Virus record (IMG/VR): IMGVR_UViG_3300021477_000013
Location: 1-44,023 of that record
Reading direction: 5' to 3' (one strand)
DNA: 44,023 nt
Source: a virus
A program made the position numbers and the translations under genes. Shown here piece by piece: positions 1 through 40,259 of the stretch (position 1 is the first letter of the stretch; every line of letters begins with the position of its first letter). The notes beneath the pieces were generated by a model, which saw nothing but the letters and a program-made list of their open reading frames with translations, was not told the origin of the DNA and searched no databases.

Positions 1-223
1 ACAGCGCCACTTTCTCCTCGGGGAGGCCGTTTTCACGGCACAGCGTGAAGAACTTGGCGTAGTCAAATCCCTCCTTTCCCTTGCACTGCTCGTTGATGAA
101 CTTCGCAAGATCGTCGTTGCCGCCGTTGGCATACTTGCCAGCGTACTTGGACGGAACGATCGACTTCGACGTCTTGGGCTCGGTTTCGGTCTCGGTTGCT
201 TCAGTCTGGTTGGCTTCACTCAT
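1..223 (-). CDS. N-terminal part of a gene crossing the window junction (QGR-family paralog 1)
   Basis: Starts at ATG 223-221 behind an AAAGGAG ribosome site. It encodes about 73 residues (begins MSEANQTEAT, acidic and Thr/Glu-rich) before running off position 1. The coding sequence continues at the right end of the window (43768-44023), because bases 5-32 equal 43996-44023. Joined, the product is about 148 residues. Its middle (VPSKY..., GFDYAKFFTL) and C-terminal half (SQGRARMTLRNMLA) align with the proteins at 5296-6084 and 9073-9621, so it is one of three paralogs. It has its own promoter at 259-287. Function unknown; a small basic/acidic DNA- or RNA-associated protein is only a guess. 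That it is one gene cut by linearisation is seen directly. Confidence 0.85.
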   Translation of the reverse strand, partial: MSEANQTEATETETEPKTSKSIVPSKYAGKYANGGNDDLAKFINEQCKGKEGFDYAKFFTLCRENGLPEEKVAL

Positions 224-258: not shown

Positions 259-287
259 ATCCTACCACACGGTGAGGTTGCTGTCAA
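259..287 (-). promoter_or_regulatory. sigma70-type promoter for the junction-spanning gene
   Basis: Reading leftward: -35 TTGACA (287-282), 17-bp spacer ending TGG, -10 TAGGAT (264-259). Transcription would begin near 252 and enter the gene starting at 223. Confidence 0.85.
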
Positions 288-320: not shown

Positions 321-2819
321 TCAGAACTTCGATCCGAACCTGCTCGATCCCTTCCACTTAGCAACCTTCGTCCCATCGTGGGTATTAGGCCCAAAATCAC
401 CGGGGCCAAACTCGAACCTTGGGGCAATGTCGACTCCGATTGCCTCGCCGAATTTCTCGGTAAGAGTGCCGATATGCCACTTGAATCTCCTCTGTATCCC
501 CTTGCCCTTTATAGTGACCAATTCCAACATGCCTAAAGTGTCAAATTCGGTGAGAACGGACCTAGGATTAGTATTGATGTTAAGCGTCTTAATCAACTCG
601 CTAACGGATCGCATGAAGTCTACATCAACAAATGGCGTGGAGATGTCTAAATCTTCCAATATCGCCCCGTTCTCGACAATAAACTTAGCTACCTTGCGGG
701 GGTTGCTCATGTTGCTGGCTACGATATCTGGATCGCTTGAAGACGATAGCCTCAGACTTTCAAGATTATGTCGGTTTACGGGGATATGCTGGAATATCTG
801 CTGGTAATGCTCCCGCGTCGAATCCTCGGTAAGGAAGTCAGCGAATTCGTCGAAGAACGTCTTGTGGGTGAGCGTCCATCTGTTAAATTCCTGCTGGCTC
901 GTCCCCATAAATTCGGGGGTGTAAGCTTTGGTGAAGAATAGCGCTCGATCCACCGTGTTCGATTCACTGATGCGAACGTCCATGTTGTTGCTGGCAAACA
1001 TGAGCCGCGCGTAGATGTTGTAGTCGCGCGAATCCAGTCCCTTTTGCTCGCCGTGGGTCTGGACGTTTCGAATGAGCAGCTTTAATTCGTCGATGGCGTT
1101 GTGGCTTTTAAACTTAACTTCATCAGCGAACACAAACATCTTGCCCATGAATGGCGATACACTAAATCTCTCACCAATTTGCTTACCGTTGACCATCCCG
1201 TAAGATCGTCCAAACAGAGACTTGGCGAAAGCAGTGCCGATGAATGATTTACCGACGCCCTGTCCGCCCACAACTACCCAAGCGATCTGTTGTTTCTCGC
1301 CTGGGTGTTGGATTGTCCATCCGAACCACTCTTTGATCCACTGAGCCTGCTCGCGATTGTTGCATGTGAGCCACGCCAGAACTTTATCAAGCTTCTCCTC
1401 ACATTGCTTAAGCTTCGGTATATTTACCGTGGTCGGCGGCTTGTGGTCCCAATCAGTCCAATGATTGTAAATCAAGCGAGCTTCCCCCTCATAATCCTCC
1501 CCGACGAATTTGCCGGATCGAGTTACACGGAATATGCTGAGGGGTTCCTGTTGCGGATAAAGATCGGCGCTGCCAACTCGAACGCGCATCTTGCTCATTT
1601 CAAACGATTTGAAAGCTTCCTTAGGCTTGCCTCCTAACATAATTACGTCCGACTTATGGCGGCGATACAAATCCTCTGCGGAGTGGGCATAAGGCCAATC
1701 TCCTCGCTTATGGCGGTATCTATCAATATAAAGCCCGTTGGAATCGTCATAGACATATTGCTCAACCAGTTGCATCAATACGTTCGTATCAGTTCCGGGG
1801 GCGCAGATGGCCCGCAGCGCGGCCACAATCTCCTCACCGAATAGAGCTTTCATTGACGGCCAGCCCGGAATGCGGGCATCGGGATTTCGGCTCAGTTTGT
1901 CGCGCGCATCCTTGTAGGTGCGCTTGCGCATGTAGGCTTCGTCGTCGCTAGTCTCGCGACAAATGAAGTCGAGGAGGGACTGAGCAATATCATCATGATC
2001 AATGGGGCAGTGAACTTCCTGAGACAGCTGCTCACTGTTGTTGATCGCGAAGCTTTCATCAACGATGCGGGCTAACCATCCGTTGAATTTGAGGGCTGTG
2101 TCTTGCCGGATGCCGGGAACCCACTGTGGCTTGATGAGGTAGAGGATGGTTCCGAAAGCAATTGCTCTAATAAGCCAATTAAACGGTGTAGCTCTTGGGC
2201 TTGTTTGAGTAAGTTCTCCGAGAGACTTAGCGATTCGTCCCCTATCGGTCCACCAGACTGAAACATCCACTCCATCTCTATCTCCATAGAGTGAACCAGG
2301 AACTACGGTCTGTTTTGCGTCATCGGACGATTCTGTGCCGGAGCGAATGTCAGTGTAGAACCGCTGGTTCCGAATACGGATGGCCTTGGGCTCGAACTGC
2401 TTAAACTCATCAAACGATCTCGATTCTTCTTCCGACAGCTGCACCAGAAAGTGACGGGGCACACCGGCGCTCTTACGGCCAAACGCGAGGCGGCAATCTA
2501 CGCCTACGTGTTGCATGGCCAAATGTATGCACTTGTTGTATTCGGTGTCGTCGCCGTCAACGTCAATGTCAACCCAACCCTGCTGCAGGTTGAACCCGAC
2601 GTTGGAGAACCGGTAGAGTTCATTGTCAATCCAATCCCGCAAGTCGGTGTCGAGGTACTTACTTGCAGACCAATTGTCGTTGACGGGAACCTTCGAAGTT
2701 GGGCGGAGGTAAACCGCCCCCACCTTTACAATATCGCGGTTAACGAGAGTCGTAATAGCCCTTTGCTCGTTTATCCCCACCCAATCGTCGGGCGATAACA
2801 GGCTCAACTGTTCTGTCAT
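321..2819 (-). CDS. AEP primase-polymerase / SF3 (D5-like) helicase fusion
   Basis: An 832-residue replication protein. The N-terminal part (about 1-200) resembles archaeo-eukaryotic primase (prim-pol) domains: a metal-binding D-I-D-V-D at residues 84-88 and a GRKSAGVPRH motif ending at His123. The C-terminal half is a superfamily 3 / D5-type AAA+ helicase with Walker A GGQGVGKS (518-525) and Walker B MFVFADE (561-567). Such fusions prime and unwind phage DNA at the fork. Starts at ATG 2819-2817 with AAGGA five bases upstream; that site lies in a leader stem (2820-2926). It is alone behind its own promoter at 2934-2962. A second polymerase (37563-39335) is the likely main replicase. The domain call is firm; which activities persist is not known. 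Confidence 0.88.
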   Translation of the reverse strand: MTEQLSLLSPDDWVGINEQRAITTLVNRDIVKVGAVYLRPTSKVPVNDNWSASKYLDTDLRDWIDNELYRFSNVGFNLQQGWVDIDVDGDDTEYNKCIHLAMQHVGVDCRLAFGRKSAGVPRHFLVQLSEEESRSFDEFKQFEPKAIRIRNQRFYTDIRSGTESSDDAKQTVVPGSLYGDRDGVDVSVWWTDRGRIAKSLGELTQTSPRATPFNWLIRAIAFGTILYLIKPQWVPGIRQDTALKFNGWLARIVDESFAINNSEQLSQEVHCPIDHDDIAQSLLDFICRETSDDEAYMRKRTYKDARDKLSRNPDARIPGWPSMKALFGEEIVAALRAICAPGTDTNVLMQLVEQYVYDDSNGLYIDRYRHKRGDWPYAHSAEDLYRRHKSDVIMLGGKPKEAFKSFEMSKMRVRVGSADLYPQQEPLSIFRVTRSGKFVGEDYEGEARLIYNHWTDWDHKPPTTVNIPKLKQCEEKLDKVLAWLTCNNREQAQWIKEWFGWTIQHPGEKQQIAWVVVGGQGVGKSFIGTAFAKSLFGRSYGMVNGKQIGERFSVSPFMGKMFVFADEVKFKSHNAIDELKLLIRNVQTHGEQKGLDSRDYNIYARLMFASNNMDVRISESNTVDRALFFTKAYTPEFMGTSQQEFNRWTLTHKTFFDEFADFLTEDSTREHYQQIFQHIPVNRHNLESLRLSSSSDPDIVASNMSNPRKVAKFIVENGAILEDLDISTPFVDVDFMRSVSELIKTLNINTNPRSVLTEFDTLGMLELVTIKGKGIQRRFKWHIGTLTEKFGEAIGVDIAPRFEFGPGDFGPNTHDGTKVAKWKGSSRFGSKF

Positions 2820-5295: not shown

Positions 5296-6084
5296 TTACT
5301 TCTGGAAGCGCTGAGAACTCATCCAATCGGCGCTCATTCGCATATCTTCGACGCCCCAAGCTGCGGGCATCACAAATATGCCGCCGTTGGCGTGGACCCG
5401 CTTGGCGAGCATATTGCGGCCCGTCATTCGGTATCGGCCTTGCCACCCCGGCGTGGTTCGGCTGTACTTTGACATATCGACGCCGTTCGCCTCCATGATG
5501 AGGTCGAAGTACTCCATGTTCGTGCCCTTGGCGTTCTTGACGAGGTTGTCGAGTTTATTCGCCAGTTCATCGCCGCAGGTGGTTGGGTGTCCCAATTCGG
5601 CGTAGATTGCACGATACTTGGTCTTGACGACGCTGGCGGGCTTCTTTTCCTCCTCCTCCTCCTCCTCAACTGGTGCGGGCTCGCCCATTGCGTCCTCGGC
5701 GCTCGCTTCCCACTGCTCGTCCCATCGAGCCCATTCATCGCCCTCTGCTGGGAACGGATTATCGTTTATGTGAAACCCTGCGCGGTGAGCAGCACGCCCA
5801 TTTGTGGGGATGTTGTTCACTGTCGGGGGCGGGTCCTCAGCGAATAGCGGCTCGGGATTCAACTTAGCCACTGCCTCGGCGAATTGAGGGTGGACTTCAT
5901 TCTTGCGGTACTCGGCTTGAACTGCCTTGATGCGAGCCAGCGCCTCCTTTGCGTCGGGGCCTGTGATGGAACGGTTGTGTTCCGACCATATCGCCTTCAC
6001 GCCGATTTCGGCTGGTTCCAGAACAACGCCCAATTGCTGGGCCTGCTTTACGTGAGTGTGGTGAATCCTACTGTTGGCTGCCAT
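5296..6084 (-). CDS. QGR-family paralog 2, long N-terminal extension
   Basis: 262 residues. Residues 1-150 are a helical, then acidic and Pro-rich extension with a run of Glu near residues 139-145. The C-terminal 110 residues form a domain shared with the products at 9073-9621 and at the window junction: VVKTKY, then L...L..AKGTNMEYFDLIMEANGV, then RTTPGWQGRYRM. ATG 6084-6082 lies just downstream of its own promoter (6112-6140). It is a single-gene unit. The conserved aromatic/Arg-rich motif might bind nucleic acid, but function is unknown. All three copies being promoter-proximal suggests abundant early expression. Confidence 0.75.
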   Translation of the reverse strand: MAANSRIHHTHVKQAQQLGVVLEPAEIGVKAIWSEHNRSITGPDAKEALARIKAVQAEYRKNEVHPQFAEAVAKLNPEPLFAEDPPPTVNNIPTNGRAAHRAGFHINDNPFPAEGDEWARWDEQWEASAEDAMGEPAPVEEEEEEEKKPASVVKTKYRAIYAELGHPTTCGDELANKLDNLVKNAKGTNMEYFDLIMEANGVDMSKYSRTTPGWQGRYRMTGRNMLAKRVHANGGIFVMPAAWGVEDMRMSADWMSSQRFQK

Positions 6085-6111
6085 TGGGTGCCTCGTTGGT
6101 TGAACGTGTTA

Positions 6112-6140
6112 ATTCTAGCACGTCGGTGGGTTCGTGTCAA
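6112..6140 (-). promoter_or_regulatory. sigma70-type promoter for QGR-family paralog 2
   Basis: -35 TTGACA (6140-6135), 17-bp spacer ending TGC, -10 TAGAAT (6117-6112), reading leftward. Confidence 0.85.
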
Positions 6141-6149
6141 TATGTTTTT

Positions 6150-6434
6150 CTACTCGCCTTCAGTTCCGGTGTGGTAGTCCTTGATGGTGTTTGTCAATTC
6201 GGGGTCTTCCTCGGGTGGCGGGTAGGTTATGCCCTTGCCCCGCTCCCACTCCATGTTGATGCAATCACCGCCATCAGTTACGATTACGCGAACCACCAGC
6301 CCGATCTTGGTCGCCACATTGTTGGTGTAATGCCAGAACGCAGCAGCCGCCTCTTCTGCTGAGACGAATTGACGCACTTTCTCGTACCCGCCAGTTTTAA
6401 AGAATTGGGTTACGCTGAATTCTTTTGTGTTCAT
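6150..6434 (-). CDS. hypothetical protein, about 94 residues
   Basis: Starts at ATG 6434-6432, which overlaps the upstream TGA (ATGA) with GGAG nearby; an ATG at 6452 is also possible. It has an alternating beta/alpha composition (FSVTQFFKTGGYEKVRQFVS, an Ala-rich helix, KIGLVVRVIVTDGG) and an acidic tail. No recognised family. It is the last gene of the three-gene operon starting at 6944. Confidence 0.6.
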   Translation of the reverse strand: MNTKEFSVTQFFKTGGYEKVRQFVSAEEAAAAFWHYTNNVATKIGLVVRVIVTDGGDCINMEWERGKGITYPPPEEDPELTNTIKDYHTGTEGE

Positions 6435-6739
6435 GATTCGATACTCCGCCATTTGCGCGCCTCTATTTTCTCGTCGAAATTGTAACGCCAGTTGGTGTTG
6501 AGCCGTTTGGCCGATCTGAAGATGTACACCATCTGCCTGTGACGGCAAGAGTGCCGATTGCTTGCTTTGCAAGTGCACTCGTCGCCGAATGTGGACTGGG
6601 TAACGAAGTAAACATCCTCGTCGCCCATCTTGCCGAATTTGGTCACTACGTATTCGTCGCCCGTTATGCGATCGCCTCGGAAGTCGTCCAGCAGTTTCTT
6701 GCCTTTGTAGTGGACGGCGTATTCGTCACCTTTAGCCAT
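6431..6739 (-). CDS. SWIM-type zinc-finger-like protein
   Basis: 102 residues. An N-terminal beta-rich region (1-50) is followed by C55-x-C57-x7-C65-x-H67, the CxC...CxH spacing of SWIM zinc fingers, which mediate DNA or protein contacts. ATG 6739-6737 lies one base after the upstream stop. The stop overlaps the next start as ATGA. Function in the phage is unknown; a nucleic-acid-associated accessory role is the reasonable inference. Confidence 0.65.
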   Translation of the reverse strand: MAKGDEYAVHYKGKKLLDDFRGDRITGDEYVVTKFGKMGDEDVYFVTQSTFGDECTCKASNRHSCRHRQMVYIFRSAKRLNTNWRYNFDEKIEARKWRSIES

Positions 6740-6740
6740 C

Positions 6741-6944
6741 TCAATATTCCAAATCTTGACCGCGCTCCCGCTTTTCGGCGCAGCTGTTGCAGTAGCCGTA
6801 GTCTGGAAGCAATCTCACCTTGTTCCCGCATCCCTCGCATTTCTTGAGAACGCTGCGACGTTGCACGTCCTGATAGAACTCGACATCGCTTTCATCCTCG
6901 ATGTCATAATGGCCGAAGTTGTCGTCGTAGTAAGATCGTGGCAT
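6741..6944 (-). CDS. small zinc-ribbon protein
   Basis: 67 residues. An acidic, Tyr/Asp-rich N-terminal half is followed by a four-Cys ribbon (CEGCGNK at 36-42, then CNSC at 52-55) and a charged tail. ATG 6944-6942 follows GGAGCG. It is the first gene of the operon from the promoter at 6969-6997. It probably binds one zinc ion; function unknown. Confidence 0.65.
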   Translation of the reverse strand: MPRSYYDDNFGHYDIEDESDVEFYQDVQRRSVLKKCEGCGNKVRLLPDYGYCNSCAEKRERGQDLEY

Positions 6945-6968
6945 GTTACGCTCCTATGTGAACCCGCC

Positions 6969-6997
6969 ATCTTAACACGTCGCGCGGGCGCTGTCAA
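6969..6997 (-). promoter_or_regulatory. sigma70-type promoter for the zinc-ribbon/SWIM operon
   Basis: -35 TTGACA (6997-6992), 17-bp spacer ending TGT, -10 TAAGAT (6974-6969), reading leftward. Confidence 0.85.
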
Positions 6998-7005
6998 GAT
7001 TCATT

Positions 7006-7575
7006 TCAGGCCATCGGCGGGAATTCAGCAAAATAGCGAAGCGCTTCAGCGACGCTATCGAATGGCTGGCCTATAAACACGGTCCAGCCGAATTGAGGAT
7101 GAAATACCCAGAACCCCCGTTTCATCTCTGCGCCGAATTCCCCCTTGATTTCGTCCTTGATTTCGTCGTATGCTTTTATCCTAATTTCCATTGTTCCGCC
7201 ACGGGAGTCCTTGACCCAATAACGGCCCGGGCCGGAGTCAACGTATGAGTTAAGAGGCGCATTCGTGCCTACTTTGCGCTGCCAAGCAGCATCATCAATA
7301 CGAGGCAGAACGCCGCCCTCCTCCACGTGTTGCCTCCACATTTGCTCGATTCCTAGGCGTTGAAACTCAGCGAATACAGAATGATAAAGACGCGAGTTCT
7401 TCGACCGGCAGATTTTGGATACGGTCTGTTCGTTCACAGCGAATGCCTTGGCGAGGATAGGATAGCTTGTGCCGCGATGAACGTGATCAGCAAAGATGGC
7501 GCAGCGGAATGTGAACGTGAGCTTCGACGCGAATGGGTTAGAAATCCTGCGGCTGTTGAGGTAAGCATCAGTCAT
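7006..7575 (-). CDS. HTH-like small-protein family paralog A with extra C-terminal domain
   Basis: 189 residues. The first 80 (TFTFRCAIFADHVHRGTSYP, AKAFAVNEQTVSKI, then Tyr-x-x-Val and a Leu-Gly stretch) resemble a resolvase-like helix-turn-helix. They align with the whole of the downstream-strand neighbour at 7568-7783 and with the protein at 32150-32464. The C-terminal part (about 95-189) is beta-rich (YWVKDSRGGTMEIRIKAYDE, FWVFHPQFGWTVFI) and unrecognised. ATG 7575 follows AAGGAG and overlaps the upstream gene by eight bases. Function unknown; DNA binding is inferred from the HTH pattern. Confidence 0.65.
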   Translation of the reverse strand: MTDAYLNSRRISNPFASKLTFTFRCAIFADHVHRGTSYPILAKAFAVNEQTVSKICRSKNSRLYHSVFAEFQRLGIEQMWRQHVEEGGVLPRIDDAAWQRKVGTNAPLNSYVDSGPGRYWVKDSRGGTMEIRIKAYDEIKDEIKGEFGAEMKRGFWVFHPQFGWTVFIGQPFDSVAEALRYFAEFPPMA

Positions 7576-7783
7576 TGTTGGCTCCTTCTACATACTTCTC
7601 ATAGAATTTGATCGTGCCCATTTTGCTGACTTCGCCATGAATCTCGTTGCCTTTTTTGGATGGCTTCAACCAAGACGCAACTAAGATAGGGTCGACGCCC
7701 AATGGTTTAGCCAGAGCGCGCCACCCAATGTGATGAACGTGATGAATTACGTAACAAGCGCATTTCGTCTCGAATGACGTCAT
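7568..7783 (-). CDS. HTH-like small-protein family paralog B
   Basis: 71 residues, starting at ATG 7783-7781 after AAGGAG. The pattern FETKCACYVIHHVHHIGWRA, LAKPLGVDPILVASWL, then a Lys-rich turn and EVSKMG matches the first domain of the gene immediately downstream and the protein at 32150-32464. The helix-turn-helix reading (LGVDPILVASW) is tentative. It is the first gene after the promoter at 7810-7838. Confidence 0.6.
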   Translation of the reverse strand: MTSFETKCACYVIHHVHHIGWRALAKPLGVDPILVASWLKPSKKGNEIHGEVSKMGTIKFYEKYVEGANND

Positions 7784-7809
7784 TGCAGACTCCTTGAGGG
7801 GTGCGCCCC

Positions 7810-7838
7810 ATGATAACACAGGGCGCAGCACCTGTCAA
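7810..7838 (-). promoter_or_regulatory. sigma70-type promoter for the HTH-paralog pair
   Basis: -35 TTGACA (7838-7833), 17-bp spacer ending TGT, -10 TATCAT (7815-7810). The -35 box contains the TGA stop of the gene at 7835-8122. Confidence 0.85.
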
Positions 7839-8122
7839 GAGCCCTTTAGGCTAGCAATGTGTTCGTCGTTACGAATGGCCGCCGCGTTGAGTTGCCGCTG
7901 GTATTCCTTGGGGAGCCGCGACCAGAATTTCCGCAGCGAATTGAGACCGTGGACGGGCTCTTCGTAACGCGCTTCGCCATCGGGGAGGTAAAGTGATGGC
8001 ATCAACGGCACGATGTGGTTCCACAGGTATTCTTGAACCGAATTCGGCAGGCCATCAAGGCATTCAGCGGCCTCGTCTGCAGTCCAAATGTCGAATAACG
8101 GGTGCGGGCTGATTCTGCTCAT
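7835..8122 (-). CDS. hypothetical protein, 95 residues
   Basis: Begins MSRISPHPLFDIWTADEAAE at ATG 8122-8120 after GGAAGGATG. It appears mainly helical and ends in a charged LKGS tail. Its TGA lies inside the -35 box of the next promoter (7833-7838). No recognised family. Confidence 0.65.
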   Translation of the reverse strand: MSRISPHPLFDIWTADEAAECLDGLPNSVQEYLWNHIVPLMPSLYLPDGEARYEEPVHGLNSLRKFWSRLPKEYQRQLNAAAIRNDEHIASLKGS

Positions 8123-8126
8123 TTTA

Positions 8127-8411
8127 TCATCCTTCCATGTAGTCGCGGTAGACCTTGTGTAACATGAAGCGCCGGTGGGCCTCTTCCTGAGTTTCGGCCC
8201 ATGTCTCAAGGCCAATCATGCGGCCGAAGTCGCGGATTTCGACGGCCCATTGTGGATTTACGGGGACGATGCCCTCCTCCGCGTCAACGAATCCCTGCTC
8301 GGTATAGAACGAATCTGTCGTCGCCCCATTCTCCGCGTTGCGGAGCATCACTTCTGCGGGGTCGCGGGCTTCCAATTCGGTGCCCTCGTCCCATACAAAG
8401 AACTTCATCAT
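8127..8411 (-). CDS. hypothetical protein, 94 residues
   Basis: Begins MMKFFVWDEG at ATG 8411-8409 behind GGAAGGG. Acidic, with beta strands followed by a helix (EEAHRRFMLHKVYRDYMEG). The next gene starts four bases after its stop. It is the first gene from the promoter at 8463-8492. No recognised family. Confidence 0.65.
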   Translation of the reverse strand: MMKFFVWDEGTELEARDPAEVMLRNAENGATTDSFYTEQGFVDAEEGIVPVNPQWAVEIRDFGRMIGLETWAETQEEAHRRFMLHKVYRDYMEG

Positions 8412-8462
8412 CGTGGCCCTTCCATGTTACGCGTCTCCGCCGCCTGATTGCGGCACGGGCCA

Positions 8463-8492
8463 ATTATACCACGGACGGGGGTCCGGCGTCAA
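8463..8492 (-). promoter_or_regulatory. sigma70-type promoter for the 8411-7835 operon
   Basis: -35 TTGACG (8492-8487), 18-bp spacer ending TGG, -10 TATAAT (8468-8463), reading leftward. The consensus -10 may offset the single -35 mismatch. Confidence 0.8.
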
Positions 8493-8511
8493 TCCCCATT
8501 TCCCAACGGAC

Positions 8512-8530
8512 ACCGTAAGCGACTTACGGT
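8512..8530. repeat. perfect 8-bp inverted repeat
   Basis: ACCGTAAG, 3-base loop, CTTACGGT, followed by a pyrimidine-rich run. It could terminate rightward transcription or mark an origin. Confidence 0.5.
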
Positions 8531-8899
8531 ACTTCTTTCTGTACTGTGTGTACTATTTTCTTTTTAAAGAAGTATAGGTCGTTATGCGGGATCGGTTTTA
8601 AAAGTGCAATGCAATAGCCCTAAGGGCCTTGGGCGGCGTACACCGGGGTACGGCGAAAACGGGGGCGACGAACCGACGATGCGCAGGTGGCTAGAGAATC
8701 CCATACCCAGCACGGAGGCGCAGTATGCTGTGTACCGTAAGTTGGGTTCCGGTGTTCCGCTTGCCTGTGTACGTTCCGATTCCGCTTCTAAGTCCCCTAA
8801 TTCGACGAGTTCCAAGAAGCGGAATTCGCCGCGTACACAGAGGCGCAGGCGGAAGCATAAGGATAAGCGCAAGCGGAACACCGCCGCGCACATACGTTT

Positions 8900-8925
8900 A
8901 CGCCCGGAACTCGCGTTCCGGGCGT
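8900..8925. terminator. strong 11-bp hairpin downstream of tiny membrane ORFs
   Basis: ACGCCCGGAAC (8900-8910) pairs with GTTCCGGGCGT (8915-8925) across a TCGC loop. It lies six bases beyond the stop of the leftward ORF at 8931-9014, so it may terminate that operon, although no long T-tract follows. Confidence 0.5.
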
Positions 8926-8930
8926 CGCGG

Positions 8931-9014
8931 CTAGATCACAACTAGGAATACATAAGCAGCGTGGATGGCTAAACAAACCATTCCTATCCAAAATAGTGAA
9001 TACATCATACCCAT
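8931..9014 (-). CDS. tiny single-helix membrane peptide (27 residues)
   Basis: ATG 9014-9012 preceded by TTGGAGA. The product starts MGMMYSLFWIGMVCL and is nearly all hydrophobic, one transmembrane span. It overlaps the end of another tiny hydrophobic ORF (9005-9085) in a different frame. Small membrane peptides in phages can act as holins, anti-holins or exclusion factors; which applies here is unknown. Confidence 0.4.
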   Translation of the reverse strand: MGMMYSLFWIGMVCLAIHAAYVFLVVI

Positions 9015-9085
9015 TCTCCAATTAGGGCTGCGAGGAGGGCGGCGAACGCCACCCCCCAAGCCGCCGCTTGGGCTAGTTCGCCCAC
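9005..9085 (-). CDS. tiny membrane peptide (26 residues), GTG start
   Basis: GTG 9085-9083 overlaps the 3' end of the gene at 9073-9621. The product is an Ala/Leu-rich hydrophobic helix ending GEWV and overlaps the next tiny ORF by ten bases. The overlap chain suggests translational coupling. It could also be a chance frame, since it is short and has a weak ribosome site. Confidence 0.3.
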   Translation of the reverse strand: MGELAQAAAWGVAFAALLAALIGEWV

Positions 9086-9621
9086 TTGCTTAGGAATTCG
9101 GCGGCGTCGTGGTCGCCTTGCGCCGCGAGTTCCACCAGGTTCTGCTCGCCGTCTGGGGTGCGGAACACGCCCGATTTCCCGACCACGCCGCGCAGGACCA
9201 GCGAACCGCTCATTCGCACCCGCCCTTGCCAGCCATTGCTGGTGCGGTTCCAGCGGCTGTAATCGACGCCGTTCGCGTCGAGGATGCGCTCGAAGCGCCC
9301 GAGGTCAAAGTTTCCCTTGGCGTCGTTGCACTCCGCCTGCAGCTCCCTCTGCAGCCAATCGCCGTTGCCACGGCGGCTGGCCTTATCCGTGAGCCCGCGC
9401 GCCTTTGCGCGGTCCTGATAGCGGTGCTTGTACGCCGTCTTCACCACTGTCTTGGGGGCGAGTGCCTTGGGCGTTTCGGCCGGGTATTCGCCGTACACGT
9501 CGTCAACGGCCGCTGGTTGCGGCTCGGGTTGCAGCGCGGGTTGCGTGGTTGTGGGTGCGGTTGCGGGCGCTTCGGCCTCGATTTCGAGCACGCGTCCGCC
9601 TTTGTGTGTGCGCTTTGTCAT
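9073..9621 (-). CDS. QGR-family paralog 3
   Basis: 182 residues, starting at ATG 9621-9619 after GGAGAACCACC, because the promoter start is near 9673. Residues 1-60 are Ala/Pro/Thr/Gln-rich and probably disordered. Residues 62-170 carry the shared domain: VVKTAYKHRY, then CNDAKGNFDLGRFERILDANGV, RTSNGWQGRVRMSG and a hydrophobic GVVGKSGVF segment. The same order of motifs is found in the products at 5296-6084 and at the junction. Function unknown. Confidence 0.75.
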   Translation of the reverse strand: MTKRTHKGGRVLEIEAEAPATAPTTTQPALQPEPQPAAVDDVYGEYPAETPKALAPKTVVKTAYKHRYQDRAKARGLTDKASRRGNGDWLQRELQAECNDAKGNFDLGRFERILDANGVDYSRWNRTSNGWQGRVRMSGSLVLRGVVGKSGVFRTPDGEQNLVELAAQGDHDAAEFLSKWAN

Positions 9622-9679: not shown

Positions 9680-9708
9680 ACTCTACCACGCTCCGAGGCG
9701 GCTGTCAA
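9680..9708 (-). promoter_or_regulatory. sigma70-type promoter for QGR-family paralog 3
   Basis: -35 TTGACA (9708-9703), 17-bp spacer ending TGG, -10 TAGAGT (9685-9680), reading leftward. Confidence 0.8.
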
Positions 9709-9757
9709 GTGTTGCCAACGCATGGTCGATCTGCGCTCCACGCATGGCGCAAGCGGA

Positions 9758-34595: not shown

Positions 34596-34927
34596 TAGTC
34601 CCTCCCGTCGATCGCCATTGCGCACAAAATGAGAGCCATATTCGCCACGTCGGCAGCTTCGAGAACTATCTCTACGGTGTTCTTTCCCTCCTCAATGGCG
34701 CTGGCTAGTTCTGTGACTTCTTCCCGAAGGTGGTTCATGTATTCGACGACCCGCCCGTGTTCCCACTTTCCCTTGTGGGAATTCTTGCGCAGCTTGTAGA
34801 TCATCGCATCGAACATGCGCCTCATATCATGTTCATACGCTCGAAGCTCCGGCGGAATCTTGATCGTCAACTTGCTCCACTCTAGGCCCATGCCCGAAGA
34901 TAAATTTGTAATTCGCTCCGAGGACAT
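34595..34927 (-). CDS. mazZ: MazZ-like nucleotide pyrophosphohydrolase (MazG/DUF550 fold)
   Basis: 110 residues by the longest frame; the domain resembles DUF550/MazG proteins. The Mg-binding acids are in EEVTE (69-73) and EAADVAN (90-96, Glu90 and Asp93), with NSHKGKW (49-55) before them. In Z-genome phages this class converts dGTP to dGMP, supplying the substrate of PurZ. It overlaps the end of purZ by 95 bases if started at ATG 34927 (AGGA upstream). Later ATGs (34891, 34825) would shorten the overlap, so the true start is uncertain. No long linker or second domain is present. Confidence 0.85.
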   Translation of the reverse strand: MSSERITNLSSGMGLEWSKLTIKIPPELRAYEHDMRRMFDAMIYKLRKNSHKGKWEHGRVVEYMNHLREEVTELASAIEEGKNTVEIVLEAADVANMALILCAMAIDGRD

Positions 34928-35888
34928 CTCTAGTATTCCTGTGCTTTTTGTAAAAGTCCAGTTGCTCTAGGGTATTCAGATAGTTCATGAAGTTTAAGAA
35001 TACATGCGTCGGGTCGTTCGCTGTCACCGAATCCTTGAACTGGTTCCAGCTGAACGTAGCGACGCGGCGCACCCGCTTGGTTACGGTTGTATATTCGGTG
35101 GGAACGCCTACCGTATCCCAGTCGGTTTCATATTGATCAGTGTACCAATCCCCACTGCTGAACCCATCGGCATTTCCTACCCGGATGGGGTAGGTCCGGA
35201 AACACAGATAGCCCCTTTTGTAGTATGTCGGCGGGAGACGGGCGTCAGCCATTCCCTGCATGAACGTACATTCGCGGCTGGTTACGTGTGGATAAAATTT
35301 GGCCTCGTTTAATCCCAACGAGAACCCTTGAGAAATCTCCATAAAATACGGGTGATATTCCAGGTCGACAATATTCTCATAGTAAGGAAATAACCGATGG
35401 GAGTGATTGTAATAAATGGCAGAAGGATCACGGCGAACCTTTCTAGAAATTGCCGCGCCGGTTCCTGAACGTGTTCCAGCAACAGCGAATATACTGCCAG
35501 AGGTATCATTCTCTGTCACCCTATCCTTTTCGAGGATTACCGTCGCGCAGGGATGAATGAATATAGGGATGTCCGGAAATTCTAAGTGTTCCTTGATCAG
35601 CAATTCGGCGTCGATAGTTGCCCCTGCCGAAAAGTATACCGGAATGGTATGGCCTCGCAGATGCATGTGAACCGCGAAGGTGGGCAGTTGTTTTAGAACG
35701 ATCTTAGTTTCCCTGAAATAACTGGTGTGTCCGCTATTCGGCCCCGCGCTTGTGATGCAGCCGTTGAATGGGATTACTTCTATAATAGCGCGCTTGGCGA
35801 GCCAAGAAGCGATCAGCCCCTTCCCCTCTGAACCATATTGGCCTCCGGCGAGGATATGGAGGCCAGTGTCAGTGAATAGAGTGCTCAC
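34833..35888 (-). CDS. purZ: PurZ, 2-amino-deoxyadenylosuccinate synthetase
   Basis: 351 residues, homologous to adenylosuccinate synthetases. The P-loop-like start GGQYGSEGKG (15-24) has Ser20 where host PurA has the catalytic Asp (GDEGKGK); this replacement marks PurZ. GPNSGHT (49-55) and the GTRSGTGAA segment (138-146) are further family motifs, with RTYPIRVGN and ETDWDTVGVPTEYTTVTKR later in the sequence. PurZ joins dGMP and aspartate (ATP-driven) to give 2-amino-deoxyadenylosuccinate; host enzymes finish dZTP. ATG 35888 overlaps the preceding stop. Confidence 0.93.
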   Translation of the reverse strand: MSTLFTDTGLHILAGGQYGSEGKGLIASWLAKRAIIEVIPFNGCITSAGPNSGHTSYFRETKIVLKQLPTFAVHMHLRGHTIPVYFSAGATIDAELLIKEHLEFPDIPIFIHPCATVILEKDRVTENDTSGSIFAVAGTRSGTGAAISRKVRRDPSAIYYNHSHRLFPYYENIVDLEYHPYFMEISQGFSLGLNEAKFYPHVTSRECTFMQGMADARLPPTYYKRGYLCFRTYPIRVGNADGFSSGDWYTDQYETDWDTVGVPTEYTTVTKRVRRVATFSWNQFKDSVTANDPTHVFLNFMNYLNTLEQLDFYKKHRNTRDVLGANYKFIFGHGPRVEQVDDQDSAGASSV

Positions 35889-37301: not shown

Positions 37302-37570
37302 CTATCTTTTGCGCCTCGTACCAACCCAATCATATTTATAGCATGAACTACGTCGATGTCGCCTGCGATGTCTTCCATCTCTTTATCGCTAGGATTACGC
37401 AATTTATCGCCATCATATATTGCGACATGTGAACAATAGAAGCATATTGCCACATCCCCATCCTCCGGAGGGCGGCTCTTTGCGTTGGTTACGTCCATCG
37501 CCGCACTCATGGATTTATTGCAATTAGGGCAGAAACACTCAGGTCTTCTGAACGCTTCGATTCTAGCCAT
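37298..37570 (-). CDS. small zinc-ribbon protein downstream of the polymerase
   Basis: 90 residues from ATG 37570-37568 (GGAGGC upstream). CPNC near residue 14 and CFYC near 43 give a zinc ribbon; the C-terminal segment is helical (DIDVVHAINMIGLVRGAKD). It overlaps the polymerase stop by eight bases, and its TGA lies in the next promoter's -35. Unknown function. Confidence 0.65.
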   Translation of the reverse strand: MARIEAFRRPECFCPNCNKSMSAAMDVTNAKSRPPEDGDVAICFYCSHVAIYDGDKLRNPSDKEMEDIAGDIDVVHAINMIGLVRGAKDS

Positions 37571-39335
37571 AGGAAGCCTCCGCCCAATTAGTTCCAGTTC
37601 CGACCTCATAAGGAATAGGTAGACCGAGTTTAAATTCATCCGGGACCGCCTCGCAGACTTTTATCAATTCGGTGGTGTCGAATCCGATCTCGCGCTGCCA
37701 AATCAACGAATCGTGGATGGTCATTAGTAACTGTACCTGCGGATGAGCTTCCTCGTATTCGGAGGCGCGCAGGAGAGTTGTCTTCATCAAGTCGCCGCCG
37801 GAATTCTGTATGATTCGGCTCACCGCTCGATAAGCGTATGCTTTATCCTCTAGACGAGCCTTGCGGCCAGTGATCGACCTGACGTAGCCGCTCGATAAGA
37901 ATATGCCCTTCGCTTCTTTTTGGAACTTGAGAATGGCGGGGAATTGACCTTTCAGCCACGCCTGATGATAGTTCAACGCTCGATTGTAGTCCCAACCCAT
38001 ATGACCTGCCAACGCTTTAGCTGACATGCCTGTTAGGATTCCCATGGCCATTCGTTTAGCGATATCTCGGTGCAATCCCAGACCAGCGGAAGTGATGTCG
38101 TGGATGTCCATAGTTCCGGAGCGGTATCCCTGAAGTAATCGCTCATCTTCTGAGAAATATGCAAACAATCTAGGCTCTTGCTGTTTGGCGTCGCCTTCCT
38201 GAATCTCGAAACCGTCATCAGCAATGATGAGTCTTCTGACGGTTTTCCCGACTTCTTTATTTCGTTTTGGGAACGCTTGAAGATTCGGCTCAGAACAGCT
38301 AAATCGCGCTCCGATTGCACCGTAGTCGTCAGATTTAGATTGATTGAGTACAGGATGAACTCGTCCCTTAACATTATGCGTCTCCACAAGCGGCGTGACG
38401 AACGAATCCCGAGCTTTTTTCATCTGCCTTATGCCGATAATTCTTTCGCCAATTTCGTTATTTTTCAGCCATCCTTCGGTGAAGGATACGGCCCCATTCT
38501 GGGTGCGTGCGAAGTCATCGTCCCCGAACCCCTCACGACGATAAAGACTCTCAACGTCTTTCGGTGAGTTGGTATTGAAACCATATGGAAACGTCGATTG
38601 GATCGCGGCAATTTTGGTCTCGATGATTCCGTTCGGTCCTCTGAGTTGTTGACCATATTCGCCATCCACTTTCATCCCGCGTCGATGGAGACGCGCCACT
38701 CGATGAATTAGCTGACATTCCAGCTTCCAAGGAGTCCTCAATTCGTGTTCGTCTAGCAGCTTCTGCTGCGCCTCCCACAGCTCTAAAGTGGATATCCCGT
38801 CACCCGTAGCGTAATCCACAACGTCAGGATGATCGCCAGCCATCTTGTAAAAGTTAGCCATTGTCTTGCGGTTTGGCATACCGCCAAATTTCGCCGCGAT
38901 TGCCCGATAAAGAGCATCGCCAAGCTTAGCAGTAACACCATGGCGTTGGCTACAATCATCGAGTCCATACCCAGAAGTGACATCGCTGATAAGCCCCTCA
39001 TTTATCATGGTATCTTCCAAGGGGTACTCCGGAAATACGCCGTGTTTTCCCGCCATGCGCAGGTCGAAACCCAGAGCGTGACCGACCGTAAGGAAGCCGC
39101 GCCGAGCGCGAGTCTTGAATGCGAGACCCAAAACTCTCTCGAACTCCCCTGAATGAAGTATGTTTCCTCCACCAACATGGCCGGTGGGAACGTAGACGCT
39201 CGCATAGCGGTCTGTAAACACCCAACCCACAACAGTATCATGAATTGTCAATCCCGTTGTTTCTGTATCGAACGCCATCACAGAAGAGTGTTGCACCATA
39301 TCGATGGCGCGTTGCGGATCAATTCCCTGATACAT
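37563..39335 (-). CDS. family A DNA polymerase with 3'-5' exonuclease (DpoZ candidate)
   Basis: 590 residues from ATG 39335-39333 (GGAGACTAAA). Exonuclease motifs: FDTET (22-26), GHALGFD (85-91) and YATGD (175-179). Polymerase motifs: A with Asp382 (EGDAKQQEPR), B from Arg423 and Lys427, C with His541-Asp542. Unusual residues: relative to E. coli Pol I, the O-helix Phe762 is Met431 and Tyr766 is Thr435, and the Glu after the motif C Asp is Ser543. In Z-genome phages a proofreading family A polymerase (DpoZ) favours Z over A. Co-occurrence with purZ and mazZ supports that, but the substrate preference is inferred. Confidence 0.85.
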   Translation of the reverse strand: MYQGIDPQRAIDMVQHSSVMAFDTETTGLTIHDTVVGWVFTDRYASVYVPTGHVGGGNILHSGEFERVLGLAFKTRARRGFLTVGHALGFDLRMAGKHGVFPEYPLEDTMINEGLISDVTSGYGLDDCSQRHGVTAKLGDALYRAIAAKFGGMPNRKTMANFYKMAGDHPDVVDYATGDGISTLELWEAQQKLLDEHELRTPWKLECQLIHRVARLHRRGMKVDGEYGQQLRGPNGIIETKIAAIQSTFPYGFNTNSPKDVESLYRREGFGDDDFARTQNGAVSFTEGWLKNNEIGERIIGIRQMKKARDSFVTPLVETHNVKGRVHPVLNQSKSDDYGAIGARFSCSEPNLQAFPKRNKEVGKTVRRLIIADDGFEIQEGDAKQQEPRLFAYFSEDERLLQGYRSGTMDIHDITSAGLGLHRDIAKRMAMGILTGMSAKALAGHMGWDYNRALNYHQAWLKGQFPAILKFQKEAKGIFLSSGYVRSITGRKARLEDKAYAYRAVSRIIQNSGGDLMKTTLLRASEYEEAHPQVQLLMTIHDSLIWQREIGFDTTELIKVCEAVPDEFKLGLPIPYEVGTGTNWAEASYG

Positions 39336-39348
39336 TTTAGTCTCCGAG

Positions 39349-39391
39349 AAGCGGGCGGGGCCGAAGAACCACCAACAGAACCCCGCCCTTC
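39349..39391 (-). terminator. GC-rich hairpin just upstream of the polymerase start
   Basis: GGGCGGGG (39353-39360) pairs with CCCCGCCC (39381-39388), with partly matching flanks, 14 bases before the polymerase ATG. It may be an attenuator or terminator between the upstream gene and the polymerase; no T-tract is evident. Confidence 0.5.
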
Positions 39392-39422
39392 TAGCTACCA
39401 ACGTGATCTACGATTTACGGCG

Positions 39423-40259
39423 CTAGAACTTTGTATTCGCGTCTCGGTGCACCGGTTGCGCCCTCCCATTCGTTGAGGGCGGGTCGTCTCCTGTCCGCTC
39501 GTCGTTGGCGCGGAATGCCACGTCTTTGTACTGCTCGAACATCGATCGGGCGACTTCGCCGTCGCTCTCGTCTGCGTATCCCAGACTCTTGTAGTTAAAG
39601 TTGAAGTACGAGTTATTCTCGGGACCCTTGTCGGTGACCACCCCTATCGAATACAGTTGGAAGAAATGGTCCACAGGCTTAGCGTCGATCAGCGACAAGA
39701 GCCGCTGGCACTGCTTCACCGACCCCCGCGAATTGAGGATAATGGAGGGGCCGAGGTCCATTCTCTCTGGGAATAGCCAGAGAATTTCGTATGTGAGCGC
39801 GGCGGCAGGAGGCGAATTGGGGTCGTCATCCCTCTGCGTGCCGAACTGGTCGAGTTTTGATTCGGCGACAGTCGGGGCAAGCCTCCAGGTATAGGTTCGC
39901 GGATTCTTGGAGAACTTCACCTGGAATTCGCCCTCGGGCGGGTCCCACTTGATGCCGTCGCGCGACCGCGCCAGAATGCCGCGCTCGTCTCCTCTTGGTG
40001 CCCACAATACGTAGGTCTTGCGGAGGACCAGAGGAATTCCGATGAGTTCCTTACCCATCGATTCGTTGAGGATTGTGTGCCAGAACTCCCCTGCTTTGGC
40101 ATTCTCGTTTTCCTCAACTTCCGGGGAGACGGAAGCGAGGAGTTTGATGCGCGGAATTACCAGATCGGAGCGGTCGAAATTACCGAATCGCTCGGTCTTA
40201 ACTTTACCCACCAGATATTCAGGTAGGGCGTTGCTTCGGAATGGGATTACGTCGGCCAT
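39423..40259 (-). CDS. replication-region protein of unknown function (possibly ssDNA-associated)
   Basis: 278 residues. Pattern LVIPRIKLLASVSPEVEENE, AGEFWHTIL, LVLRKTYVLWAPRGDERGIL is known to me from phage proteins placed next to polymerase and recombination genes, sometimes annotated as ssDNA-binding-like. Beta-rich core, acidic or polar C-terminus (DDPPSTNGRAQPVHRDANT), as in ssDNA-binding proteins. Starts at ATG 40259; the next gene ends three bases before. Function remains unproven. Confidence 0.6.
   Translation of the reverse strand: MADVIPFRSNALPEYLVGKVKTERFGNFDRSDLVIPRIKLLASVSPEVEENENAKAGEFWHTILNESMGKELIGIPLVLRKTYVLWAPRGDERGILARSRDGIKWDPPEGEFQVKFSKNPRTYTWRLAPTVAESKLDQFGTQRDDDPNSPPAAALTYEILWLFPERMDLGPSIILNSRGSVKQCQRLLSLIDAKPVDHFFQLYSIGVVTDKGPENNSYFNFNYKSLGYADESDGEVARSMFEQYKDVAFRANDERTGDDPPSTNGRAQPVHRDANTKF

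Follow-up and report, generated by a model that had tools for sequence, protein, structure and literature searches.

The window analyzed here, an IMG/VR virus record of 44,023 nt (IMGVR_UViG_3300021477_000013), encodes three paralogous proteins, A, B, and C, all on the minus strand, that share a small helical domain. We name this domain GxRM after its signature, G-x-x-R-M, which starts a long helix, and we refer to the branch that contains A, B, and C as the QGR family. In phages, GxRM forms an old family of several copies that is tied to PurZ, and bacteria attach the domain to modification-dependent nucleases. We regard it as an evenly balanced proposition that GxRM is a DNA-binding domain, recruited and multiplied by PurZ-type phages because their genomes contain 2-aminoadenine (Z) instead of A. 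The safest statement is that the domain is repeatedly used by PurZ-type phages, since it is neither required for DNA containing Z (Z-DNA) nor limited to phages that have it.

Three divergent paralogs and their orthologs

A preliminary description, made from the sequence of the window, had proposed three paralogs with a shared order of motifs, one of them running across the contig junction. Smith-Waterman scores were 151 for A and B (maximum among shuffles, 60), 109 for A and C (58), and 77 for B and C (61), and 0 of 1,000 shuffles reached the real score in any pair. Searched against the whole record, B matched only itself and A (E 2.2e-13), and A also matched both halves of C. The reading frames are present, and the alignment places VV/P.KY, GD.LA, G..D..F, NG, G.QGR.RM, and a GxF/L end in this order in all three proteins; ten columns of the core are invariant across 11 sequences.

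The reading frame of C runs from position 223 to 1 and continues from 44023 to 43768. The contig ends (1 to 32 and 43992 to 44023) form a 32-base overlap with one mismatch, and when it is collapsed, C is an intact protein of 148 amino acids. An uninterrupted C gene in an independent contig (L005, 18798 to 19253) rules out C as an artefact of contig ends, and the junction-spanning gene proposed earlier thus stands. The same overlap makes it probable that the genome is circular or terminally redundant and was catalogued as linear.

Ochrobactrum phage vB_OspP_OH (OH; Wolominvirus) encodes a one-to-one ortholog of each paralog in a corresponding position. OH gp04 is the ortholog of B (40% identity), gp15 that of A (41%, with the N-terminal region matching separately), and gp23 that of C (60%). 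The gp23 gene comes after a primase-polymerase gene, and C comes after a primase-like gene in the window. Profile searches of IMG/VR with the QGR family detected 60, 61, and 31 loci, and a tree of 153 distinct cores set C apart from A plus B (support, 0.98) and recovered a B clade (0.93). Records of at least 35 kb carried two to four QGR genes, with three or more in 27 of 32 when split matches were counted once. Some genomes encode a fourth, B-like copy, often on the opposite strand; in L020, L036, L057, L062, and L064, two B-like genes lie on opposite strands a few kilobases apart.

One-to-one orthology and separate clades indicate that the triplication predates the divergence of these phages and that the copies have been kept apart. 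The preliminary description had left a choice between dosage and a functional split. Triplication for simple dosage can be rejected, because the copies have diverged and have separate orthologs; a functional split of A, B, and C is supported by the one-to-one orthology and by their different N-terminal parts.

AlphaFold models had a mean predicted local distance difference test (pLDDT) score of 87 for A, with a core mostly above 90, and of 76 for C, with a core above 90. The modelled core consists of four helices, the last of which is long and starts at G.QGR.RM, followed by a short strand pair. In the model of A, residues 9 to 63 form an alpha-beta-beta-beta-alpha domain and residues 96 to 133 form helices, with pLDDT of about 95 in most blocks. 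The N-termini are therefore different, as had been proposed, but that of A is not disordered. In Foldseek searches, the model of C matched the predicted structures of all three OH paralogs (E 3.2e-15, 4.6e-3, and 2.1e-2; probability 1.00 each), and nothing else matched it convincingly. Comparison of models and alignment against shuffles, the two tests to which the preliminary description had exposed the family, both came out in its favor. With VIA-align, the best hit of the core was a death-domain chain (Z 4.1, root mean square deviation 3.6 over 69 residues) among mixed rows that lay below the tool's noise level. The hits of the N-terminal domain of A to release factor domains on ribosomes (VIA-align Z ≤5.1) and to a 67-residue Thermus protein (2yzt, Z 4.2) were too weak and too common to name a function.

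PurZ phages, the type-2 branch, and bacterial relatives

The window itself encodes PurZ, an enzyme of Z nucleotide synthesis. PurZ and copy number were scored in 49 QGR-family records, picked as the longer or more distant of the contigs found. PurZ was present in 40 of the 49 and in all 32 that were at least 35 kb long; the nine records that lacked it were fragments of ≤31.3 kb. PHROG 1211, the profile used, also matches cellular PurA (14 of 14 control genomes) and so does not separate it from PurZ, for which reason we checked the residue at the position of PurA Asp13. According to the PurZ passages of PMC8515928, Ser in place of this Asp is a PurZ signature. All 40 genes fetched, 33 from type-2 records (described below) and 7 from QGR records, had the Ser; these genes were taken from records that already had a PurA/PurZ match. 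The association does not appear to follow virion lineage. A match to the terminase of the window was found in 469 phage records, and no copy of the domain was found in the three listed terminase relatives other than OH (P26218, HTVC010P, and ctfPj964, all non-PurZ), which argues that the domain follows Z.

A second, more distant branch of the family, type 2, was reached through Burkholderia phage Bm1, a PurZ phage with one protein that matched the QGR profile (E 5.4e-4). A tblastn search with a 98-amino-acid part of this protein matched 47 of 50,697 phage records, 192 of which are PurZ records, and all 47 were among the 60 PurZ rows listed. Carriers of type 2, which has the signature Y.HLN.GxQRMN.GN.LR, include phiVC8, VP2, VP5, ZP6, BUCT555, PMBT28, PSA28, Kokobel2, and Klebsiella phages; a type-2 profile (A10) also matched SH-Ab 15497 (E 4.8e-32) and had no match in S-2L or BpsS-140. 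The type-2 records tested for PurZ in IMG/VR were 50 of 76 distinct contigs (≥20 kb, minus two) from the best 80 of 186 confirmed matches; 41 of the 50, and 35 of 35 at ≥35 kb, encoded a member of the PurA/PurZ family. Two or more type-2 copies occurred in 21 of 34 IMG/VR records. Bm1 itself has three (L169, L179, and L184), two of them short, with GRKSM/GRKKM. Four members (from PSA28, PMBT28, Kokobel2, and SH-Ab 15497; L173 to L176) have, ahead of the core, a CxxC...CxxC segment like a zinc ribbon, which adds to the signs of nucleic acid binding.

Searching the window in turn with the Bm1 probe yielded A (E 0.004) and C (E 0.011) and no other match. Profile-profile comparison of type 2 with QGR scored 26.1, whereas the highest of 300 column shuffles reached 17.5. 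Gappy columns were trimmed before shuffling; untrimmed alignments gave artefact scores (8 of 200 shuffles above the real one, compared with 0 of 300 after trimming). The hhalign probability for the trimmed alignment was 49%. When a type-2 hidden Markov model was searched against 29,125 open reading frames (ORFs), 317 of them family members, 42 of the 43 ORFs at E ≤1 were QGR members, and no single family ORF reached E <0.1.

Bacterial relatives of the domain were found at 19 loci; a first scan of genome contigs with the QGR profile had given no match. Their profile bridges the two phage branches, scoring 35.0 against QGR (shuffle maximum, 25.5) and 100.6 against type 2 (24.2; 300 shuffles each). 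The pattern G..[RKSV]M occurred in 144 of 144 QGR cores of more than 80 amino acids, its fuller form G..[RKS]M...N.[LI] in 92 of the 144, and G..[RKS]M..[GA]..[LI] in 13 of 13 type-2 and 11 of 11 cellular sequences. From these sequence comparisons, homology of the QGR, type-2, and bacterial branches is likely, not proven, as the individual E values are weak.

In Brevundimonas, Sphingomonas, Phenylobacterium, and other Sphingomonadales (L271 to L275), the domain is N-terminal in a longer protein. The C-terminal half of all three fusions tested matches BisI-family nucleases (PADLOC PDLC03212, E ≤1.9e-50), and that of L274 matches the solved structures of NhoI (E 2e-24) and Eco15I (E 5e-24). These fusions occur in Sphingomonadales and Caulobacterales contigs and were found only in alphaproteobacterial records. 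At eight other loci (L276 to L283), the domain stands alone or ends a protein of unknown function. This protein family (Rhizobiales, Rhodobacterales, and others) has a conserved DRIKQMIGHM.RQIM region before the domain, and its tested members had no convincing name in Pfam, NCBIfam, or PADLOC. Three bacterial genomes with a relative and a PurZ-like gene (G099, G102, and G103) probably owe the PurZ-like gene to phage contigs. A gammaproteobacterial metagenome-assembled genome includes a 36,591-base contig (L266) that carries PurZ, equals IMG/VR record L213 in length, and appears to be a Z-phage that was binned as bacterial.

Possible functions of the domain

In Z-DNA, every A carries an extra amino group in the minor groove. 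We postulate that the invariant G-x-x-R-M turn and the helix that follows it would contact DNA, and that the variable N-terminal parts would direct the paralogs to separate tasks. C, adjoining a primase-like gene, may have its task in replication or repair, and A and B, which each head an early operon of their own, could be regulators or packaging proteins of incoming or new Z-DNA. Binding of modified DNA is favored, indirectly and on sequence comparison, by the PurZ association and the BisI-type fusions, and we would only guess at a preference for Z-DNA over ordinary DNA. A simple nucleoid coat, a role that the preliminary description had raised, is doubtful, because the core of C has a net charge of 0 and full-length A one of -8.

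Several observations weigh against DNA binding driven by Z. The core charges are mixed, with net values of +4 (A) and +9 (B) beside the 0 of C. No copy of the domain was found in cyanophage S-2L, Bacillus phage BpsS-140, or the PurZ0-like actinophages Korra, Ghobes, and Rasovi; the family is thus not in all PurZ-type phages, and Z-DNA as such does not need the domain. Of ten other PurZ phages, the QGR profile matched only Bm1, and it reached neither phiVC8 nor SH-Ab; what connects the branches is profile comparison, a common signature, and weak reciprocal matches. The phages are related and not independent samples, so the counts given above overstate the strength of the PurZ association. Sixteen of the 19 bacterial genomes with a relative have no PurZ-like gene besides the host PurA, and the domain is therefore not exclusive to Z. 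Foldseek found no match at E ≤0.001 for the core among solved structures. BisI-type nucleases read their target unaided by an extra domain, so the fusion does not prove that GxRM binds DNA.

An alternative hypothesis, which we consider rather unlikely, is that the paralogs are sequence-specific early regulators, each binding to an operator close to its own TTGACA-N17-TAG promoter and so timing its operon, and that the PurZ link reflects exchange of genes between these phages and not Z. Each gene is indeed first behind a consensus-like promoter, the three promoters are alike, the paralogs occupy similar positions in OH, and the modelled helical core could be a DNA-binding domain. The preliminary description had given each paralog its own strong promoter. 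A TTGACA-N17-TAG.[AG]T-like promoter does precede each one, but it is not special to them: the minus strand has 21 TTGACA sites, 11 of which have a -10 element matching at least four of six positions at a spacing of 17, and most of these 11 are not in front of family members. We take this promoter type to be a feature of the early region, and 87 of 2,000 random 160-nt stretches scored as well as the promoters of B and C. No operator was identified, and the association spans phages of different genome sizes and hosts, both of which speak against this hypothesis.

We think it unlikely that GxRM is specifically a reader of 2-aminoadenine DNA that senses the extra minor-groove amino group of Z:T pairs. 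On that reading, the phage copies would be addressed to replication, transcription, and packaging, and the bacterial nuclease fusions would be possible sensors of incoming Z-DNA.

Less probable again are accessories of replication or nucleotide metabolism that make contact with proteins, such as the Z polymerase, primase, or PurZ, and not with DNA. The position of C after a primase-like gene in both the window and OH, the co-occurrence with PurZ, and the low or negative charge of A and C are consistent with such a role, which leaves unexplained both the nuclease fusion in bacteria and the several paralogs with different N-termini.

Least probable among these readings is anti-restriction, in which free-standing copies mask Z-DNA sites or compete with or poison a host modification-dependent nuclease: the fusions to BisI-type nucleases in Sphingomonadales and Caulobacterales, the early position, and the multiple divergent copies expected of an arms race speak for it, whereas the fusions were found only in alphaproteobacterial records although the hosts of PurZ phages are many, modified cytosine is what BisI enzymes read (PMC11347163), and the strong conservation of C next to the primase is not typical of anti-defence genes.

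If GxRM binds DNA, as we propose, it bears on how DNA-binding proteins cope with a Z genome. The described genes for Z-DNA concern making and polymerizing its triphosphate; a multi-copy domain in otherwise different PurZ phages, together with its nuclease fusion, offers a direct handle on this question. Well over a hundred hypothetical genes can now share one name, GxRM, and PurZ-type phages gain a sequence marker.

Neighboring genes and known systems

The features of the window are given in Table 1. For B, the start at ATG 9621 is likelier, because a start at the alternative GTG at 9741 would leave the -35 element downstream of it. The gene at 39423 to 40259, which lies between C and the polymerase, is similar to phage Pam3 gp34 (Pfam Pam3_Gp34, E 1.8e-30), of unknown function.

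Table 1. Positions of the QGR genes, their promoters, and neighboring genes in the window
Feature	Position	Strand	Description or basis
Paralog A, 262 aa	5296..6084	-	Alpha-beta-beta-beta-alpha domain at the N-terminus, then a segment like ribosome modulation factor (RMF), an acidic linker, and the QGR core
A, residues 9-63, folded N-terminal domain (starts IHHT)	5896..6060	-	Structure model; conserved in most A orthologs
A, residues 95-134, RMF-like segment (G..A...G....NP/CP....W...W), marginal	5683..5802	-	Pfam RMF
A, core domain, residues 149-242	5359..5640	-	Alignment and model
Paralog B, 182 aa; core about 9148-9459	9073..9621	-	Reading frame and alignment
Paralog C, 5' part, start ATG at 223	1..223	-	Reading frame
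Paralog C, 3' part across contig ends	43768..44023	-	Reading frame; intact in contig L005
A promoter, -35 TTGACA; -10 TAGAAT (6112-6117)	6135..6140	-	Spacing 17
B promoter, -35 TTGACA; -10 TAGAGT (9680-9685)	9703..9708	-	Spacing 17
C promoter, -35 TTGACA; -10 TAGGAT (259-264)	282..287	-	Spacing 17
Primase-like replication protein, directly upstream of C	321..2819	-	PHROG 1156 DNA primase, E 2.5e-25
PurZ, Z nucleotide synthesis; GSEGKG motif, Ser at PurA Asp13 position	34833..35888	-	PHROG 1211, E 9e-49; sequence
Family A DNA polymerase	37563..39401	-	Candidate Z polymerase

The middle part of A and its orthologs resembles RMF (AY..G...DCPY....W..EWD.AAD), with the spacing AY..G...CP....W..EW of RMF, but marginally by Pfam. 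The Pfam RMF profile matched 4 of 60 family members (best E 0.022) and did not match A of the window, and for lack of a match above the gathering score we do not assign A to RMF.

The preliminary description had called the family undescribed, and the database searches bear this out: A, B, and C had no match below E 0.03 in Pfam, PHROG, NCBIfam, or PADLOC. Searches of PDB sequences with both profiles gave matches only at E 0.27 or worse. We took a weak chemotaxis inhibitor match, a HeH/LEM match in 1 of 60 members (E 0.0078), and a DDHD match on Bm1 to be due to chance or composition. The family is not described in the PurZ or 2-aminoadenine passages of PMC12884076, PMC8342488, PMC8065100, and PMC8515928, and the text of the paper describing OH (PMC7139368) mentions neither PurZ nor 2-aminoadenine. 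Absence of the QGR family from described families is thus supported, and literature of this scope is not proof that it is undescribed.

Among known systems, the OH proteins gp04, gp15, and gp23 belong to the same family as A, B, and C and are annotated as hypothetical proteins. PHROG 8941, of unknown function, matches the type-2 branch (Bm1 CDS_0067, E 6.2e-11) but not A, B, or C of the window. The N-terminal domain of the BisI fusions has profile homology to the QGR core and stronger homology to type 2; the fusions carry a nuclease, whereas the phage QGR proteins do not, and A, B, and C had no BisI-like catalytic domain in PADLOC. BisI enzymes cut DNA bearing modified cytosines (PMC11347163). 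PurZ, MazZ, DatZ, and DpoZ, the known set of the Z genome, are enzymes of the supply and polymerization of the Z deoxynucleoside triphosphate (dZTP), whereas the GxRM family, in which no enzymatic signature was seen, is a domain that accompanies PurZ in phages.

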